A stretch of 20,349 nt of DNA from positions 1-20,349 of the IMG/VR virus record IMGVR_UViG_3300025785_000128; one strand, written 5' to 3'. Shown piece by piece: positions 3,484 through 18,342 of this stretch. Made by a program: the position numbers and the translations under genes. Each line of letters opens with the position of its first letter. The stretch's first letter is position 1. The DNA is from a virus. Under the pieces are notes generated by a model. That model worked only from the letters and a program-made list of their open reading frames with translations, had not been told where the DNA came from and did no database searches.

Positions 3484-4929
3484 TTACATCCAAGATTCTT
3501 CTTGTTCTCCATCAAAGAATCTCTGTTTGATGAGCACATCAAGGGCTGGCATTCCGTCAACTCTTGATCTGGCCATAGGATCTCGCATGTAGTCTTGTCC
3601 TGGCTCAATGCTGGCCATATGATCTCCGTCGAGGTATTCTGGTAAAATAGGTTGTTCATGTGTCATTGGGAACAAGTGATGTATGCCATAACGAATGCAG
3701 TCACCAAGGCCGTCTATGTGTGCATACTTGGCGTCTGAGTATTTGACCAGTTGTTTACGAGTTCCATCCTCATAGTGGTAAGTTTCTAGAGCATCTAATA
3801 GCTTGGTCTCTTGATCATTGATAATCAAACGACCTTGTGCGATAAAAGCATTTGATGAGTTGTCTGTGTCTGAGATTAGGGGATTGCTCTTGGCCGTATT
3901 CATGATGCGAAAACCAAACTTCTCTAGAATAGTTTGATCAGTCGTGCCAAATGCTGAAGTAGTGTCACGATTAAGTTGGCTACCTGATCTATCCATGATG
4001 CTCCAAATTGGACGGTGGGGGAAATCTGCTCTTATCCTCTGGGCTATGCCCTCCGTGCCGCAATCTGGTATGGCATAGGATTTGAGTATTTCAATCCGCC
4101 CTTTTTGACTACGGATATCCCCAACTACCTGTGCAACCACAGCACACATAACCCTTTTGTTAAAGTCATGAAAACTATATAACTCTTTGCCTCTATCGTG
4201 GAGTTGCTCTGGCACAGCCATAGTTCTCTTCCACGCATAATAAAATTGATCTTGCACACTTCCCCAATCGCACTCTAGGTCTTTGGCAAACTTGAGTGGT
4301 GATAATAGATAACGCTGTTCTTCAATCCACTTCTTAGGTTGGACTCGCATTTGATTCCATGTCTTGTGTAGATATATCCAGCGTTCAGGGTGAGTTTGTG
4401 CGTGTTGTGCCCAATCATAGAAAGCGTTCTTGCCTTCAGGGGTTGATATTAGGATTAGGCGTCCTTGGGCTTCTGTTTCTCCAGGGTTTGGTCTGATACG
4501 ATTAGACAGTTCTTGGAGTGCTTCATCAGTAAATTCTGCGGCTTCGTCTGCCACAATGACGCCAGCATTGATACCCTTGAGTCCTGTTTCTGAGGATAAA
4601 CAGAAGATTCTGATTCCATTGGGAAAAGTAATTGTTTTGCTGGAGTTGTTGATTTGTTTTTCATCTTCTAAGCCCCACATGGTGATGCAACGCTGTTTTA
4701 GGTCTTTCCAGATAATTCGTGATATCATGGGTGCTGTTGGGGCAACATAAAGGATATCACGCCCTTTGTGCATGGCAGGTGTTGTCGCGGCTATTGGCAG
4801 GAGCAAACTTGCTAGAAAACTCTTACCACTACCTACTGGCAGGACGGCACAGACATTGCGATCGCTCAGCATGGCCTGCCACACTTCTGATTGTGCGCCA
4901 TAAAGGTCTATATTATGCTGGTTTGACAT
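3484..4929 (-). CDS. terL: Terminase large subunit (ATPase and nuclease)
   Basis: The 481-aa product is the packaging motor that cuts concatemeric DNA and drives it through the portal. The N-terminal ATPase shows a Walker A-like loop LPVGSGKS (residues 30-37), a Walker B VIVADE (124-129) with the catalytic Glu, and a coupling motif ISTPEG (161-166). The C-terminal RNase H-like nuclease is marked by Asp255 in SFHDFN, Asp313 in SIMD, and Asp406/Asp410 in HIDGLGD, which fit the metal-binding triad. Its start overlaps the end of the small subunit gene by 17 nt, indicating translational coupling. The Walker A reads GSGKS rather than the more common GR/GKS/T variants but retains the lysine and serine. 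Confidence 0.92.
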   Translation of the reverse strand: MSNQHNIDLYGAQSEVWQAMLSDRNVCAVLPVGSGKSFLASLLLPIAATTPAMHKGRDILYVAPTAPMISRIIWKDLKQRCITMWGLEDEKQINNSSKTITFPNGIRIFCLSSETGLKGINAGVIVADEAAEFTDEALQELSNRIRPNPGETEAQGRLILISTPEGKNAFYDWAQHAQTHPERWIYLHKTWNQMRVQPKKWIEEQRYLLSPLKFAKDLECDWGSVQDQFYYAWKRTMAVPEQLHDRGKELYSFHDFNKRVMCAVVAQVVGDIRSQKGRIEILKSYAIPDCGTEGIAQRIRADFPHRPIWSIMDRSGSQLNRDTTSAFGTTDQTILEKFGFRIMNTAKSNPLISDTDNSSNAFIAQGRLIINDQETKLLDALETYHYEDGTRKQLVKYSDAKYAHIDGLGDCIRYGIHHLFPMTHEQPILPEYLDGDHMASIEPGQDYMRDPMARSRVDGMPALDVLIKQRFFDGEQEESWM

Positions 4930-6489: not shown

Positions 6490-6791
6490 TATGTTAGTTG
6501 TTCATCTATCCAAATCCTTAAATCTTTGTTTTCTTTTAATACTTTGGCTAATGCTTCTGCTATATAATATATTTTGTCATGATGTAGTTTTAATCTCATT
6601 AGTTCATCTACACTATGTAATATCTCATGAAACATTGTATCTACAGCGTCTTCTCCTTTGAGATCTGGATTGATCCAAATTGTTTGACGCCAAGCTGGCG
6701 ATATAGATCCATGTAATTTCTTTTTTTGTTCCTCATCAACAATTGGTTTGATTTGGTAAGTTACTGGACCAACTTTTACTTTCTTTAACAT
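6489..6791 (-). CDS. Small HExxH metallopeptidase-like protein
   Basis: The 100-aa protein contains FHEILHSVDE (residues 54-63), an HExxH zinc motif in a helix, as in small phage metallopeptidase-like proteins and SprT/ImmA-type folds. A preceding strand and turn (SPAWRQTIWINPDLKGEDAV) look like the edge strand and loop before the active helix. The third zinc ligand is not certain; His70/His71 or Glu79 are candidates. AAAAGGAAA precedes the ATG. It forms a single-gene unit with its own promoter and terminator hairpin, unlike its neighbours. Substrate unknown. Confidence 0.65.
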   Translation of the reverse strand: MLKKVKVGPVTYQIKPIVDEEQKKKLHGSISPAWRQTIWINPDLKGEDAVDTMFHEILHSVDELMRLKLHHDKIYYIAEALAKVLKENKDLRIWIDEQLT

Positions 6792-6812
6792 TTCTATTTC
6801 CTTTTTAAGTTA

Positions 6813-6832
6813 ATACTGCTTTCCCTCGCAGT
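6813..6832 (-). other. 5' leader hairpin of the metallopeptidase-like gene
   Basis: TACTGC (6832-6827) pairs with GCAGTA (6818-6813) around GAGGGAAA. It lies at or just after the expected transcription start, before the ribosome site; it may stabilise the 5' end of the mRNA. Confidence 0.35.
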
Positions 6833-6838
6833 AATAAT

Positions 6839-6885
6839 AGTATAAGCGAACTAGAAATTAAAATCAACAGAAAATTTAGCCAAAA
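6839..6885 (-). promoter_or_regulatory. Promoter A, for the metallopeptidase-like gene
   Basis: TTGATT (6867-6862), 17 nt, TATACT (6844-6839) on the minus strand, with TTTTGG (6885-6880) exactly 12 nt upstream of the -35 and an AT-rich stretch CTAAATTTTCTG between. It matches promoters B and C in spacing and is 48 nt from the gene start. Confidence 0.65.
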
Positions 6886-6950: not shown

Positions 6951-7601
6951 TTATTTGCTCAAAATATAGCGAATGGCTTCTAGGCGAGCTGATTTCTTGT
7001 CATTTGAATCTATTTGTATCCAAGGTGCATAGGCAGTATCTGTTTGCTTGAACATGCGAGTTTTGGCCTGTGTGTAAGCATCCCAAAGTGTCTGTGCCTG
7101 TAGATCTACTGTGCTTAGTTTGCCCTGTTTGAGTGGATTGGTTGCACGATCACTGAGTCTAAGAGCTTGTTCTTCTTGTGTAATTGAAAACCAAAACTTG
7201 ATGATCTTAATGCCTGCTTGTGTCCACATCTTTTCTAGGCGGGGTGCTTCTGATAGGAAACTGTTCATTTGATCTCGGGTGCAGTAGCCCATAACAGGTT
7301 CTACTAGGGCACGGTTATAATAGCTTCTATCCCAAAACTGTATTTCACCTTTGCGTGGAAATTGGTTGATATAGCGTTGCCAATACCATTGACTGCGTTC
7401 TTCTTCTGTGGGCTTGTCTAGGGCTATGACTTTGACTGCTCTAGGAGGGAGATTTTCAGTGATTCTACGGATGTGTCCTGTTTTACCAGCACAGTCTCTG
7501 CCTTCAAATATTATGATATATTGATCACCGCGGGCACGGACCTGTTGTTGCCAAGCGTTGAGTTCTAGGTCTAATTGATACTTTTCTTCTTCATAGGTCA
7601 T
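6951..7601 (-). CDS. ppk2: Polyphosphate kinase 2 (PPK2) family protein
   Basis: This 216-aa protein matches the PPK2 core across its length. Walker A is FEGRDCAGKTG (residues 32-42; the usual form is FEGRDAAGKGG), Walker B is FWDRSYYNR (89-97), followed by the family blocks VEPVMGYCT (100-108), FWFSITQEEQ (136-145), the lid DRATNPLKQGKLS (151-163) and the C-terminal APWIQIDSNDKKSARL (192-207). PPK2 enzymes transfer phosphate from polyphosphate to nucleoside mono- or diphosphates. All key residues are present, so activity is likely, although Thr41 replaces the usual Gly after the P-loop Lys. It is at the short end for the family. Its ATG overlaps the preceding stop (ATGA), and it is the last gene of the accessory operon. 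Nucleotide preference cannot be read by eye. Confidence 0.9.
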   Translation of the reverse strand: MTYEEEKYQLDLELNAWQQQVRARGDQYIIIFEGRDCAGKTGHIRRITENLPPRAVKVIALDKPTEEERSQWYWQRYINQFPRKGEIQFWDRSYYNRALVEPVMGYCTRDQMNSFLSEAPRLEKMWTQAGIKIIKFWFSITQEEQALRLSDRATNPLKQGKLSTVDLQAQTLWDAYTQAKTRMFKQTDTAYAPWIQIDSNDKKSARLEAIRYILSK

Positions 7602-7879
7602 TGTAGGCTTTTAGACTTGATCATTACAGCGTCATGTGCTGAATAAATTTCTTTGTCTTGATCCTGCCAATTGGTCCAATCTAGTTCTGCCAGTTCATAT
7701 GGGCAGGTTATGTTAACCAGGAACTTGCGAGGGATAATAAATCCAAACTGTTTAAGTTGTCCAAAGCGTAAACAGGCCAAGCGAAGTTGACTTTCTGAAT
7801 ATCCATTGTGTAGCAGGCGCACAAAGTCTTCAAATAACTTAGATGGGGCATTAGGGTTATCAAGATTAATTACCTTCAT
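7598..7879 (-). CDS. Protein of unknown function (93 aa)
   Basis: I do not recognise the family. The protein begins MKVINLDNPNAPSKLFEDFV and has a helix with RLACLRFGQLKQFGF in the middle; the second half is acidic with Trp residues. It is probably soluble and small-domain. It overlaps the gene before it by one base (TAATG) and the PPK2 start by four, placing it firmly in the accessory operon. Confidence 0.7.
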   Translation of the reverse strand: MKVINLDNPNAPSKLFEDFVRLLHNGYSESQLRLACLRFGQLKQFGFIIPRKFLVNITCPYELAELDWTNWQDQDKEIYSAHDAVMIKSKSLQ

Positions 7880-8280
7880 TATTGATACTCACTTTTAAGT
7901 ATTTTGATTGCGGTGTAGCTGTTGGGGTTTTTGGCCACTTCGTCTGGTGTGCCTTCTGTGTGCGTGATATTGTGCAGGTAAGCATCACGCAGTTGTTCTG
8001 GATTATAGAGTTTTTGGATATTGTGTTGATTGTCCAGAGTCCACATCATTTGAACTGCTTGATAGCGTTCACCGCCCAACTGCTGTGCTAGCCAATTGAA
8101 AGCATCTGCGTCTGTGAAGTTGCCTTCTGTTTTGCTGGTGGCCATGCGTTCTAGTTCCAAGGCAATCTTTTCACCTTCTTCAAAACTAATGTAGGGACTT
8201 AGCGCCCACATGGCTCTGTCAATTACATAAAATCTGTTGGTCACGCCCACACTTAGGCGTGTCATATCAAATCCTGCCAT
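7879..8280 (-). CDS. Protein of unknown function (133 aa)
   Basis: A soluble, mixed-charge protein beginning MAGFDMTRLSVGVTNRFYV. A middle region FEEGEKIALELERMATSKTE is helical, and the C-terminal third is His/Asn-rich (YLHNITHTEGTPDEVAKNPN). No motif of a known enzyme is visible. AAAGGGAT lies upstream of the ATG, and the Dps-like gene ends 19 nt earlier. It could act with its Dps-like or PPK2 neighbours, but nothing in the sequence shows this. Confidence 0.7.
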   Translation of the reverse strand: MAGFDMTRLSVGVTNRFYVIDRAMWALSPYISFEEGEKIALELERMATSKTEGNFTDADAFNWLAQQLGGERYQAVQMMWTLDNQHNIQKLYNPEQLRDAYLHNITHTEGTPDEVAKNPNSYTAIKILKSEYQ

Positions 8281-8299: not shown

Positions 8300-8812
8300 T
8301 TAAAGTTTTTCTGGTTCAAACTCTGCGTCGTTGCCATCTGCATCTTTGTTGTAGTCTGGCTCTACACATATGGTGCTGGCCAGTTCATGCCACATCCAAT
8401 GATCAAGATATTTGATATAGCCTGCTACAATACCAGCAATACCATATTCTTTGGTTTCATGAGCACGGTCATGAGCTTTGACAGCACGATCCTTGATGGT
8501 CTTCATGTCATTAAACAGGATCTTGTTCATTTTGACAAAATCTGGAGCTTCATCAATGTCTTTTAGTTCTGACAGCTCCACAATGCGATCTAGGCTGGCA
8601 GGAGGTATTTCCTGTAGTTCACGGATGGTGTGTCCAATTAGGTGTGTCTGCTTGTTGATCTTGCGACTCATTTTCTTCCAAGTCTTGTGATACATCAACA
8701 TTTCCCAACCTTCTACTGCTAGGCAAAACCCTTCTACTTTGATATAAAGGTGAACGCTGTCTGCGAACAGTTCCTTAAGGTGGTCTACTAATTTGTCTGA
8801 GGCATCTGCCAT
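8300..8812 (-). CDS. Dps/ferritin-like protein with altered metal ligands
   Basis: The 170-aa, nearly all-helical protein has Dps length and helix pattern: LKELFADSVHLYIKVEGFCL, a helix with YHKTWKKM, then THLIGHTIREL, the crossover SLDRIVELSELKDID, and two long C-terminal helices ending in YIKYLDHWMWHELAS. Dps proteins are ferritin-fold dodecamers that oxidise and store iron and protect DNA. Aligned by eye with E. coli Dps, His63 matches His42, but the Asp78/Glu82 pair falls on His57/His61 and His51 is replaced by an aromatic or Cys residue. A canonical ferroxidase centre therefore seems absent. It starts one base after the preceding stop. It could alternatively be another four-helix ferritin-like family. 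Confidence 0.55.
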   Translation of the reverse strand: MADASDKLVDHLKELFADSVHLYIKVEGFCLAVEGWEMLMYHKTWKKMSRKINKQTHLIGHTIRELQEIPPASLDRIVELSELKDIDEAPDFVKMNKILFNDMKTIKDRAVKAHDRAHETKEYGIAGIVAGYIKYLDHWMWHELASTICVEPDYNKDADGNDAEFEPEKL

Positions 8813-9843: not shown

Positions 9844-10260
9844 TCAACCTTTATGAGTGAATGTCTTATGCACTGACCAACCATACTCATTGAGATGTCG
9901 TGCTAGAGTGCGGAATGGTATGCCCAATTCTTCTGACCATTCTACTAGTGTTTGAGTTCGCCCTTTATATTTGACCAAATGATTAGTGCGGCGATTACGG
10001 CTATTTTCTTTTGGTGTAGCCCAACACATATTCTTAAGCCAATAGCCCTTGTCGTTGTTCTTGCGTTCAAGGTGCATGCCAGGTTTGGGCAGGCCTATGG
10101 TGCTTTCTATGTCTTCGCAAAAGGTTTGGAAATCTTCCCAGCGAGGGTCGTAGTCAATGCCACGACCTCCATAGTATTGATATAGTGCATTGTTTTCGTT
10201 ATTGCAGACATTGCGTAAAAAGCACCATCTGCCAAATAGTGGATGTTGTCTAACTCCCAT
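9844..10260 (-). CDS. HNH endonuclease
   Basis: The 138-aa protein matches the phage HNH homing-type family: RWCFLRNVCNN, YYGGRGIDYDPRW (29-41), then HLERKNNDKGYWLKNMCWAT (63-82) and SRNRR. The central His63, Asn69 and Asn77 cluster fits the beta-beta-alpha metal fold that cleaves DNA. A C-terminal segment TLVEWSEELGIPFRTLARHL with GWS looks like a NUMOD-type helix-turn-helix for site recognition. Free-standing HNH genes of this kind are mobile in phage genomes. Its ATG overlaps the 100-aa gene by 11 nt. A role in packaging is possible but not indicated by position, since terminase is far away. Confidence 0.85.
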   Translation of the reverse strand: MGVRQHPLFGRWCFLRNVCNNENNALYQYYGGRGIDYDPRWEDFQTFCEDIESTIGLPKPGMHLERKNNDKGYWLKNMCWATPKENSRNRRTNHLVKYKGRTQTLVEWSEELGIPFRTLARHLNEYGWSVHKTFTHKG

Positions 10261-11673: not shown

Positions 11674-12750
11674 TTAGCTGACGGTTTTGACACCCAAATA
11701 ATAGAGTAAATTTACACTTAGACGCTCATTAGAGGGATCCATATTTTTAGCCATAGTGCCAAACTCCACAGCCTTTTCAGTCATGCCCATATTCCAAGCG
11801 GCCAGTGCGGCTAGGTCATAGGGCTTCCATCCCCAGCATTCTGGATCCACTGTGTAAACACTTTCTCTGTCTTTGATAGCTAGGGCACGAACGGCACTGA
11901 TATAACACTCATCCCAGAGACTTTTCTTATAGCAGGATTCTGCCAGATCTACCCATGGTTCTCGTGTAAAAGGAGCCTCAATTGACGCCAATCTGAAGGC
12001 TTTTAAGGCGTTTTCGCCATCTCCTAAAGCATCGTATGCTCTACCCTTCACTCGCAACGCATAACACCTTTCATTGACCCATGTTGCATCTGGCAAGGCC
12101 AAATAACGATCTACTGCGGCTATTGATTCCTGCCAACGCTTGTGAAATCCTAACTCCCTGGCATAGTAAAAGGCATTGCGAGCATTCCAAGGATTTTCTT
12201 TTACATCCGCTTCTAGCAAGGGCATATATTGTCCGCGGCTTTTTGTGTTATCTGGCATATGGATCACTAGAAGTTCATCTGTTGTTGCCCAAACTTCAAC
12301 GGTGCGTGGGTCTGGATAAACTGCTTCGTGGCACATATTACGCCAACGGAATCCATGACGGGCATGGCATTTGTCATAATAGAATGCTATGCCAGCACCC
12401 CAATCAAATTTGTATTTGAGTCTATTGGTTTCGCCCTTCTTCCAAACACGCTCAATTTCTTCACGCCAACCTGGCTGAAGCACTTCATCAATGTCCAAGC
12501 TCATGCAGACATCTATATCTGTGGGGATTAGCCCTAGTGCAATATTGCGGGCATCATCAAAGCGCCAAGGCTTGACTGAGATGTCATAGACTGTTGCACC
12601 CAACTCTCTTAACTTATCACCAGCACCATCAGTGCTACCAGTATCGCAGACTAGGACGAGGTCTGCCGCTTTAGCCCCTTCCATAAAGCGGGGAACAAAA
12701 TCTACTTCACCATTACATATAGCATAAACACATATCTTCAAATCTGTCAT
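11674..12750 (-). CDS. Glycosyltransferase (GT2-like) with C-terminal helical repeats
   Basis: The 358-aa protein starts with a GT-A-like Rossmann fold: KICVYAICNGEVDFVPRFME, DTGSTDG (36-42, typical of GT2 nucleotide-sugar binding) and a DxD-type metal motif LDIDEVL (85-91). Residues about 180-350 are helical repeats of TPR character (NAFYYARELGFHKRWQESI, YALRVKGRAYDALGDGENAL, AAWNMGMTEKAVEFG). This fusion is known in phages. It would transfer a sugar from an activated donor to a protein or glycan; the acceptor is not shown by sequence. It lies a few genes after the Thr-rich collagen-like fibres and so could modify them (inference). It overlaps the preceding gene's stop by four bases. Confidence 0.82.
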   Translation of the reverse strand: MTDLKICVYAICNGEVDFVPRFMEGAKAADLVLVCDTGSTDGAGDKLRELGATVYDISVKPWRFDDARNIALGLIPTDIDVCMSLDIDEVLQPGWREEIERVWKKGETNRLKYKFDWGAGIAFYYDKCHARHGFRWRNMCHEAVYPDPRTVEVWATTDELLVIHMPDNTKSRGQYMPLLEADVKENPWNARNAFYYARELGFHKRWQESIAAVDRYLALPDATWVNERCYALRVKGRAYDALGDGENALKAFRLASIEAPFTREPWVDLAESCYKKSLWDECYISAVRALAIKDRESVYTVDPECWGWKPYDLAALAAWNMGMTEKAVEFGTMAKNMDPSNERLSVNLLYYLGVKTVS

Positions 12751-13466: not shown

Positions 13467-15044
13467 TTATTCTCCTGGGAAAGGTGCTGTTGGTGGGGTA
13501 AATGCCGCAGGGTATCTTCCAACACCAACAGTTATACGCACCTCATCAAAGTTTGCACCGTTATTATTGTTTGAGGCATTATTACCTTCACCTATGCGAG
13601 CATAGGTATTGGCCACACCTTGTGTTCCTGCATAAGCACCAGATGTAGTATTAAATCCATAATTGTTAGTATCTGAGTAAGAAGCCTTTTGAACACCATT
13701 AATATACATTTTACAGGTGCCGCTATTTCTTGAAAGTGCAATATGATACCATGTAGTAGAACTCATACCATGCGCACCGTAACCAACCAAGGTATCCTTT
13801 GGTACAGATCCGCCATCTGCATAGTGTGCCAAATTAGTTCCATCAAACCAAAATTGAAGTCCTGCGGCACCTGTTGAAGGAGTGGTTGATGATGTTAGAT
13901 AAGGGCGATTGTCAAATATTATACCTTGTCCATTATTAGTTGTTGTTCTATAAGCCCAACATTCAATAGTAAAATCACCCGTGCCTGGGCTAAAGAGTCC
14001 TGTATCTCCACTTGTAGTTACATAAGCATAAGTTGATTGACTTGAGCCCTGACGAGGACTCATACAATAACTATTAAATGCTTGGCTACCACCTGTATTG
14101 TAAGCCATAGTTCCATTAACTGACCAAGCAACTTGTCTTTGGCTAACATCTAGCACAGCATTTTCGCAACGAAGATGTGTGGTTACATTGGCTCTATAAG
14201 GATCTTTAGGTAATGGAAAACGACTTGATGCATCAACTGTAAAGTTTGTTGCTGTTGAATAGCGAGCGACACCAGAAGTAATACGCACTTCATCAATATA
14301 ATAAGGACTGCCTGACTTTTGACAATCAACACCTACTCTAACATAACCAAAACCTTGTGAATGTGTTCTAGCACCTGGGTTGGCAATCCAACTGCCTGTA
14401 GCCGCAACACCATTAAGGAATACACCTAAAAAGTTATTTTGATGAACAATGGCAAAGTGTTGCCATTGTCCTGTGGTAAATTTAACAGAACCTGCTGTTC
14501 CTTGTGCTGGACCACCATAGTCTGTTCCATTGTCCATGTAATAGAAAAGTTCTCCATTGTCACGACATCCAGGACGAACGCCATTAACTGTGGCACTATA
14601 GGTAAAGTTATTTGGACTATCTGTAGAAACAAAATAAGCCTGTGAACCTGAGGCAGGTAAACTGACCCAATAGATCCAACCTTCAATAGTCCAATCTCTA
14701 CTCATATCGCAAACTGTGCCTGCAATAGTTGCGGTCGTGCCTGTTGGAACTGCCCAGTTGACAGCACTATATCTAGTTGCCACATTATAGTTTGTGGTGT
14801 AACTCATGTCTAAACTGGTGCCACCTTGGAAATAGGTAGTTGCTGTTAAGGCCGCATTTTGAGTTTCACTTACTGCTTGACTTGGTGTCCAACGATTCCA
14901 ACTGTAATCTTGAAAGCCAACACCACTGGTATCTGCTTGAGCACCATCAAAGTGAGCAAGGAATGTGGTATGATTGGGATATAGATCTACTGAACTGGAT
15001 GCAGTAGAAGCCGCCCTAACAATTTGTCTGTTAAGGCCTTTCAT
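13467..15044 (-). CDS. Double LamG/concanavalin-like lectin tail protein
   Basis: The 525-aa protein contains two jelly-roll lectin-like domains, about 22-275 and 285-520. Each opens with a sandwich strand and reaches a signature like DWTIEGWIYW or DFTIECWAYR, then WYHIALSRNSG / WQHFAIVHQNN, and ends with IDEVRITSGVARYS or FDEVRITVGVGRYP. LamG-like domains in phage fibres commonly bind surface sugars, so this is a plausible receptor-binding or fibre-tip protein. Its start overlaps the end of the collagen-like fibre by one base (TAATG). No catalytic motif of a depolymerase is visible. Confidence 0.8.
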   Translation of the reverse strand: MKGLNRQIVRAASTASSSVDLYPNHTTFLAHFDGAQADTSGVGFQDYSWNRWTPSQAVSETQNAALTATTYFQGGTSLDMSYTTNYNVATRYSAVNWAVPTGTTATIAGTVCDMSRDWTIEGWIYWVSLPASGSQAYFVSTDSPNNFTYSATVNGVRPGCRDNGELFYYMDNGTDYGGPAQGTAGSVKFTTGQWQHFAIVHQNNFLGVFLNGVAATGSWIANPGARTHSQGFGYVRVGVDCQKSGSPYYIDEVRITSGVARYSTATNFTVDASSRFPLPKDPYRANVTTHLRCENAVLDVSQRQVAWSVNGTMAYNTGGSQAFNSYCMSPRQGSSQSTYAYVTTSGDTGLFSPGTGDFTIECWAYRTTTNNGQGIIFDNRPYLTSSTTPSTGAAGLQFWFDGTNLAHYADGGSVPKDTLVGYGAHGMSSTTWYHIALSRNSGTCKMYINGVQKASYSDTNNYGFNTTSGAYAGTQGVANTYARIGEGNNASNNNNGANFDEVRITVGVGRYPAAFTPPTAPFPGE

Positions 15045-16558
15045 TATGCGTATCCTTTGGTTAGCGCGGCGTAATAGGTAGTTCCAATATAACTGATAGT
15101 TAAGATATCAATTGAACCTGCCGCGGTTGATAATGTTTTATAACCATTGGCAAATTTCATAGTTGAAGTTAATGTTCTGCTACCTGTTCCGTCTTGTGTA
15201 AGGATTAGAGTAATTGCTTGCCCTGATACTGGATTATTAAACGCACTGATTGTCACATTACCTGTTAGCGTAGTTGTTTGAACTGTGCCGTTAGTAAAGT
15301 CAGGAGTTAGTGTGGACGCATAGGTTAAAGCGTATGGAGTATCAATAGCAGGTCCTGTTGGCCCAGTTGGTCCAGTGCTACCTGTAGTTCCAGTGCTACC
15401 TGTTGGCCCCGTAGGCCCAGTTGGTCCTGTGCTACCTGTAGTTCCAGTGCTACCTGTTGGCCCCGTAGGCCCAGTTGGCCCTTGACTGCCTGTGGTTCCA
15501 GTAGAGCCTTGTGCCCCAGTAGGACCCGTTGGCCCAGTTGGACCAGTGCTACCTGTAGAACCAGTATTTCCGCCAGGTCCAGTAGGTCCAGCCGCTCCGC
15601 GTGTTCCTGATAAACTAATCAACCAATCTGAACGAGCAGTGATACCACCTGTGCTGGTTATCACATTGACTGTTAGGACTGTGCCAGAATAAGCAGTAAT
15701 GTTACCCCATAATTGATCACCAAAACCAGTTGATGTAATGAATACATATTCACCAACTGTAAAAGCATTGGTTCCTTGTGCTTGGTTGACATTGAAATTA
15801 TAAGTAGTGCCAACTGTGGTGCTAGGCTGTTTGCTGTCACTAGATGTTAAGCCACTAAATCCTAAACCATTTGTTCCGTTACTACCATTAGTGCCCGCGG
15901 CACCAGTAGGCCCAGTTGGTCCCGTAGGTCCCTGACTACCTGTATTACCAGTTGTGCCTTGTGCGCCAGTTGGCCCCGTTGGCCCAGTGGGTCCTGTGCT
16001 ACCATTTGTTCCAGCAGTTCCCTGAGCACCTGTGGGACCCGTTGGCCCAATAGCCCCAGTAGTTCCATTTGCCCCTGTAGGTCCTGTTGGCCCTGTAGAT
16101 CCTTGTGATCCAGTGCTACCAGTTGGTCCTGTAGGCCCAGCTACGCCTTGACTACCCTGGCTACCAGTAGGCCCAGTGGGTCCCACATTACCTGTGCTAC
16201 CTTGTGCGCCAGTTGGACCTGTTGGTCCCTGGCTACCATTTGTTCCATTAGTTCCGTTAGTGCCTGCGGCTCCAGTTGGACCTGTTGGCCCTACATTGCC
16301 CGTCGCTCCAGTAGGACCTGTGGCACCTGTTGCGCCTGTGGGTCCTTGACTGCCCGTAGCACCTGTTGCGCCTGTGGGTCCTTGACTGCCCGTAGCACCT
16401 GTTGCGCCTGTGGGTCCTTGACTGCCCGTTGGTCCTGTTAGGCCCTGATTGCCTTGTGGTCCTGTTGGCCCCTGTAGACCATTAGCAGTTGTGACATAAG
16501 TGCCATCATCAAACTGTAGGCCGTTTTTAATTTTGAAGTATTTTTCTTGTGAACTCAT
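15044..16558 (-). CDS. Collagen-like tail fibre protein 1
   Basis: The 504-aa protein has a short N-terminal module ([20 protein letters not shown], 5-24) then long Gly-X-Y repeats dominated by Gly-Pro-Thr ([19 protein letters not shown]). A non-collagen module of about 90 residues (roughly 233-325) interrupts the repeats, and the last about 95 residues form a beta-rich cap ([19 protein letters not shown]...) that would nucleate the trimer. Collagen repeats in phages make thin trimeric shafts. Tandem DNA repeats of 36 and 54 bp lie inside, so length can change. The N-module is shared with fibre 2. Confidence 0.9.
15375..15482 (-). repeat. 54-bp tandem repeat in collagen fibre 1
   Basis: Two near-identical copies with period 54 bp (18 residues) start at 15375 and 15429. 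They add six Gly-X-Y triplets each and preserve frame. Confidence 0.75.
16323..16430 (-). repeat. 36-bp tandem repeat in collagen fibre 1
   Basis: Three copies, identical but for the last base, with period 36 bp (16323, 16359, 16395) encode [12 protein letters not shown] three times. Exact identity at synonymous sites implies recent slippage or unequal recombination. Confidence 0.85.
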
Positions 16559-16595
16559 TTAAGTTTCCATATTCCACTTAAGGACTAAATTTAGA

Positions 16596-16612
16596 GGGGG
16601 CTTTTCACCCCC
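16596..16612 (-). terminator. Terminator-like hairpin between the two collagen fibres
   Basis: GGGGG (16612-16608) pairs with CCCCC (16600-16596) around TGAAAAG in the 62-nt gap after fibre 2. TCTAAATTTAG follows, which is AT-rich but not a U tract. It may reduce the amount of downstream transcript. Confidence 0.45.
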
Positions 16613-16620
16613 ATTGTGCG

Positions 16621-18342
<1,722 letters not shown>

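Follow-up and report, generated by a model that had tools for sequence, protein, structure and literature searches.

Can a phage draw on the polyphosphate (polyP) of its host? The question is raised by one gene of a 20,349-base viral record (the window), which also encodes terminase, portal and collagen-repeat proteins and an HNH endonuclease, and whose source is a freshwater-type phage. The gene, at 6951..7601 (-), had been predicted from its letters to encode a polyphosphate kinase 2 (PPK2) and is referred to here as ppk2. We consider it probable that ppk2 encodes a working class-I-type PPK2, used in infection to recharge nucleoside diphosphates (NDPs) to triphosphates (NTPs) from polyP, and that the gene is movable as a gene-sized cassette. 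It belongs to a lineage that is virus-only in our sample.

The ppk2 product is a class-I-type PPK2

The ppk2 ORF called on the window begins with ATG, contains one stop, at its end, and specifies 216 amino acids. The product is a member of Pfam family PF03976 (PPK2), scoring 264.8 bits where the cut-off is 22.3 (E 8.2e-79). A search of solved structures identified class I PPK2 of Francisella tularensis (FtPPK2; 5LLB) as the closest relative, matched without gaps over ppk2 residues 2-215 (E 2.9e-73) at 55% identity. The top-scoring NCBIfam model was TIGR03707 (polyphosphate kinase 2, P. aeruginosa type; 294.0 bits, E 8e-88), which falls just below the equivalog cut-off of 301.8. Thus, we file ppk2 as PPK2 family, class I type, and not as a TIGR03707 equivalog. 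An asparagine after the Walker B motif is the signature of class I (PMC8776046), and this residue is present as Asn96. Additionally, the best scores were obtained with class I models and class I structures. Thymidylate kinase was rejected as an identity, with the dTMP kinase model reaching only E 0.008 versus 8e-88 for TIGR03707. A PHROGs search of the window returned no PPK2 family.

Active-site and polyP-contacting residues are conserved

The original prediction described the PPK2 core motifs as intact, and alignment located each of them: Walker A, EGRDCAGKT (residues 33-41; 7479..7505 (-)), Walker B, FWDRSYYNR (residues 89-97; 7311..7337 (-)), and NPLKQGKLS within the lid region RLSDRATNPLKQGKLS (residues 148-163; 7113..7160 (-)). 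For the lid this holds in part. While NPLKQGKLS is present and Arg148 and Arg152 are kept, the lid is not fully canonical, since the conserved tryptophan of PLKxW-K is Gly160 in the window protein. The consensus residues of Walker A (DxxGK; D36-K40), Walker B (DRSxY; D91-Y95) and the lid (R...R...P...D; R148/R152/P156/D166) are all found, and D36, K40, D91, R92, R148 and R152 are invariant in a 43-row alignment.

Roles in catalysis or polyP binding have been assigned to individual FtPPK2 residues (PMC4748334; PMC8776046). D62, K66, D117, R118 and R174 of FtPPK2 are kept as D36, K40, D91, R92 and R148 in the window protein, and R178, K184, K228, K229 and R232 as R152, K158, K202, K203 and R206. 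Alanine substitutions at FtPPK2 K66, R118 or R178 weaken polyP binding and activity (PMC8776046). The only checked position not kept is His76, which is Asn50 in the window protein.

An AlphaFold2 model built from the 43-row alignment (pLDDT 93.6) superimposed on polyP-bound FtPPK2 (5LL0/5LLB) with an rmsd of 0.9-1.0 Å and a TM-score of 0.97, indicating the PPK2 fold. By sequence and model, the product is an intact-looking class-I-type PPK2. FtPPK2 (FTT1564; 4YEG, 5LL0, 5LLB) shares this fold, the Walker motifs, the lid arginines and the class I asparagine with the window protein, which differs from it in having Gly160 for tryptophan, Thr41 for the glycine after the Walker A lysine and Asn50 for His76. 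The solved F. tularensis chains also carry ∼26 extra residues ahead of the matched region. Class I PPK2 SMc02148 from Sinorhizobium meliloti (3CZQ, 6DZG) has fold and motifs in common with the window protein at ∼50% identity; it differs at the same Gly160 (Trp) and Thr41 (Gly) and has a long N-terminal extension.

Gly160 and Thr41 are traits of a viral lineage

Residues 160 and 41 were tallied in a set of distinct PPK2 sequences, 119 of them bacterial and 81 viral. At position 160, tryptophan occurs in 117 of the bacterial sequences, tyrosine in 2 and glycine in none; the viral sequences divide into 31 with glycine and 50 with tryptophan. Most PPK2s have glycine at position 41, including 116/119 of the bacterial set, and the three bacterial exceptions, all serine, are distant (33-35% identity). 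Among the viral sequences, 11 have threonine or serine at this position and every one belongs to the 31 with lid glycine; Asp36 and Lys40 are invariant. GK[T/S] is the ordinary form of a P-loop. Because T/S in viral sequences is confined to those with lid glycine while glycine prevails in bacteria, we read Thr41 as a recurrent trait of the lineage by which the P-loop regains its usual GK[T/S] form, and not as decay. The Thr41 substitution had been put forward as a possible cause of lost function; this is not borne out, as 11/31 distinct lid-Gly sequences share T/S with an unchanged Asp36 and Lys40 and the model lies 0.9 Å from FtPPK2. We found no statement on the role of the lid tryptophan in the PPK2 literature searched. 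Its replacement by glycine, as well as Thr41, could alter substrate or rate.

Phylogeny had been proposed as a check on the assignment, and it places the window PPK2, class I by Asn96 and best scores, in a fully supported clade. Both trees were built without the two marker columns (positions 160 and 41). In the 94-row tree the 25 lid-Gly representatives all group together as a single clade (SH-aLRT 100), and in the 59-row tree the same clade has support of 100/100 and appears in 100% of bootstrap trees. On the 94-row tree, lid glycine requires a single change and T/S two. Neither tree contains a bacterial member of this clade, and the nearest bacterial relatives are 56-59% identical. Since the bacteria sampled were the best 80 GTDB loci plus a single class, represented by 369 genomes, the clade is virus-only for the present sample. 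Recent capture from a bacterium was rejected on the same identity ceiling in this sampling and on the tree.

PPK2s from huge phages (records of ∼635-735 kb, L058, L060 and related IMG/VR contigs) are also viral and of class I type. These form their own clade, with lid tryptophan and GKG, and each of the two clades has an SH-aLRT of 100. The window protein lies outside the huge-phage clade, and an origin of its gene there was rejected. Further viral PPK2 copies are placed elsewhere in the tree, and together with the huge-phage clade they show that phages acquired PPK2 more than once. Among phage copies, the deposited genome of Moraxella phage Mcat6 (KR093630.1; L057:6001-6642) carries an unannotated PPK2 of the lid tryptophan type (52% identity) that the tree places close to a bacterial copy.

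Although the original prediction called this an uncommon auxiliary metabolic gene, the viral collection includes at least 118 confirmed PPK2-encoding stretches, although a few of these are near-duplicates of one another or the edges of prophages. Indeed, viral ppk2 has been reported, including in metatranscriptomes, as an auxiliary metabolic gene that environmental phages carry as the window phage does (available portions of PMC9636769 and PMC13188868). Those portions contain no description of the lid-Gly clade, a structural test or an allele replacement. Relative to the reports found, both the lid-Gly clade and the replacement of the allele described below appear new; viral PPK2 as such was already known. 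Virus-encoded polyphosphate kinases are also said to be the subject of Li et al. (2025, Water Res 268:122678, cited in PMC13188868), which may overlap the present findings.

To estimate selection, we compared three phage alleles (window, L002 and L001), for which pairwise dN is 0.16-0.17 and dS 0.88-1.41. The resulting dN/dS of ∼0.11-0.19 over deep divergence indicates purifying selection on ppk2. At least one phage PPK2 lineage is thus deep, kept under purifying selection and distinct in sequence, and not a recent bacterial stray.

The lid-Gly clade occurs in two phage backgrounds

The original prediction also had ppk2 ending an operon with a Dps-like gene, and ppk2 does come last in a co-directional gene run (9044-6951), one member of which encodes a weakly matching ferritin/Dps-like protein. 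The first 4 bp of ppk2 (7598-7601) are shared with the end of the ORF before it, o7598 (7598..7879 (-)); homologues of this small ORF lie beside ppk2 in L002 and L023. ORF o7879 (7879..8280 (-)) is conserved upstream of ppk2 in L001, L002, L010, L023, L069 and L079. The Dps/ferritin-like protein (8300..8812 (-)) scores 25.7 bits against PF00210 (cut-off 24.5) and matches phrog_3636; a sequence search of solved structures gave no match. It lies upstream of ppk2 in this phage group and after portal in others (L048, L052). The terminase large subunit (3484..4929 (-); phrog_2, E 2e-36) is downstream of ppk2. In this terminase group (the window, L001, L002, L010 and L079, with L023 and L069 in part), the genes run Dps-like, o7879, (o7598), ppk2 and on to terminase and portal. 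ppk2 is accessory here: among ten relatives recovered in a terminase scan (terminase ≥65% identity, ≥4 kb upstream), five carry it and five lack it.

The second background is a replication module, where ppk2 lies near genes for DNA polymerase A, a PD-(D/E)XK nuclease, a SNF2-type helicase and a DUF927 protein (L062-L068, L071-L073, L076, L078 and others). In L064 the ppk2 start overlaps the end of the DNA polymerase A gene.

These settings bear on whether ppk2 is a neutral passenger, gained by recombination and retained only temporarily. Its accessory status in the window's group would fit such chance carriage, as would an allele that differs between near-identical genomes. We give this explanation hardly any weight, given the dN/dS over deep divergence, the invariant active site and a single viral clade spanning both backgrounds.

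Nearly all second-group phages also have a small Lys-rich protein tied to ppk2. It is encoded in L064 at 6516-6854, and homologues lie beside ppk2 in L061-L095, L101, L110, L134 and L003; these proteins contain 25-28% Lys+Arg and ∼10% Asp+Glu, with the pattern GFVTxxGKFVxRKKAAKIA...KKLHSxDLR. It was not found in the 80 bacterial loci and has no PHROG. Our guess is that it may be a polyP-binding partner.

An allele difference is bounded by the gene

The window and IMG/VR contig L002 align over 14,491 bases, with 5 differing sites in the 13.8 kb outside ppk2. Within the gene, a diverged tract (6981..7574 (-)) has 154 mismatches and no gaps. The tract begins 27 bases inside the ppk2 start and stops 30 bases inside its stop, and its mismatches fall 44/29/81 by codon position (dN 0.17, dS 1.05). 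Divergence is about equal between any two of the alleles of the window, L002 and L001; one of two near-identical genomes therefore has an allele as divergent as that of another phage species. Near-identical flanks around a diverged ppk2 were unique to this pair among 86 viral pairs compared, and L002 was the only further contig found with the window's 5' flank. Unless one assembly is chimeric, the difference looks like a gene-bounded allele replacement, and we infer recombination as its cause.

A chimera would have arisen if a strain-mixed assembly placed one phage's allele between flanks from a different phage, an artefact that concerns the window/L002 difference and not the gene itself. Both records are metagenome contigs, and a contig from the same population, L006 (99.96%), begins 19 bp past the ppk2 stop (window 6931) at hairpin-like sequence. 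Against this, the alignment is free of gaps, and identity at the two gene ends reaches only ∼27-30 bp into the gene, so that a chimera requires an additional genome with longer shared sequence at each of the two joins. Additionally, no other pair with near-identical flanks has the pattern. An artefact is thus unlikely, and allele replacement is the reading we retain.

In the other pairs with near-identical flanks ppk2 tracks the flanks, which does not support the gene as a general hotspot of variation. HNH homing next to ppk2 was considered as a driver of the swap, but no endonuclease gene adjoins ppk2; the HNH endonuclease gene (9844..10260 (-); phrog_3377, E 6.5e-36) is upstream in the same orientation. 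Another identity pattern was seen in L062, L064, L066 and L078, whose ppk2 genes are 98-100% identical while stretches ∼450-1050 bp upstream are 75-87% identical in several pairs. Here the similarity of ppk2 exceeds that of some flanking segments, yet high identity runs past the gene; the pattern is a sign of recombination in the ppk2 region. The window and L002 provide two natural ppk2 alleles that are directly comparable in one phage background.

Proposed function of the phage PPK2

During infection, phage PPK2 would move phosphate from host polyP onto NDPs, and the recharged nucleotides would feed phage NTP/dNTP demand. Homologous recombination at the conserved gene ends would allow ppk2 itself to pass from phage to phage as a gene-sized cassette. 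Characterized class I PPK2s mostly favor NDP phosphorylation from polyP (PMC8776046). Together with the replication-module context, this preference makes nucleotide recharging the best reading; activity, NDP specificity, the direction from polyP to NTP and use in infection are all inferred. Counting against it, the accessory ppk2 of the window's group sits in a packaging/Dps region away from replication genes, and Asn50 occupies the position of FtPPK2 His76.

The reaction could instead run mainly toward synthesis, storing phosphate as polyP from ATP or GTP. Some class I PPK2s prefer this direction, C. glutamicum PPK2 and P. aeruginosa PPK2B being good polyP makers (PMC8776046), so that direction is not set by sequence, and an increase of polyP accumulation through viral ppk has been suggested (PMC13188868). 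We nonetheless regard dominant synthesis as very improbable, since most characterized class I enzymes favor NDP phosphorylation and a replication module fits polyP consumption.

Removal of polyP might itself be the benefit, with recharging as a by-product, if phage DNA were freed from silencing by polyP and Hfq or if polyP stress responses were dampened. In E. coli, polyP with Hfq silences AT-rich prophages and mobile elements (PMC10954037), so polyP consumption could also benefit a phage. The window DNA is moderately AT-rich (42.6% GC), and in its group ppk2 lies near a DNA-protection-like (Dps-like) gene. Still, the silencing evidence comes from E. coli prophages and not from infection of a freshwater host, and the second group has ppk2 beside DNA polymerase and other replication genes. 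As the main benefit, polyP removal is distinctly unlikely, and we continue to favor recharging.

A more specialized role is possible, if doubtful. The lid-Gly proteins, partly with GK[T/S], may constitute a phage PPK2 subfamily retuned for infection, with alleles exchanged as a cassette under selection. Retuning could be, for example, toward deoxynucleotide or pyrimidine diphosphates, or toward removing polyP from DNA silenced by Hfq. Whether phages draw on host polyP becomes a testable question with a harmless enzyme of 216 residues and a single residue comparison (Gly160/Trp).

Other genes of the window

Outside the ppk2 region, a 358-amino-acid protein (11674-12750) has a glycosyltransferase-like reading and homologues in L001 and L011; it gave no Pfam or NCBIfam match. 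A lectin-like (Laminin_G_3) protein is encoded at 13467-15044 and two large collagen-like repeat proteins (GPTGPTG...) at 15044-18342, all of which are probably parts of the tail fibre.
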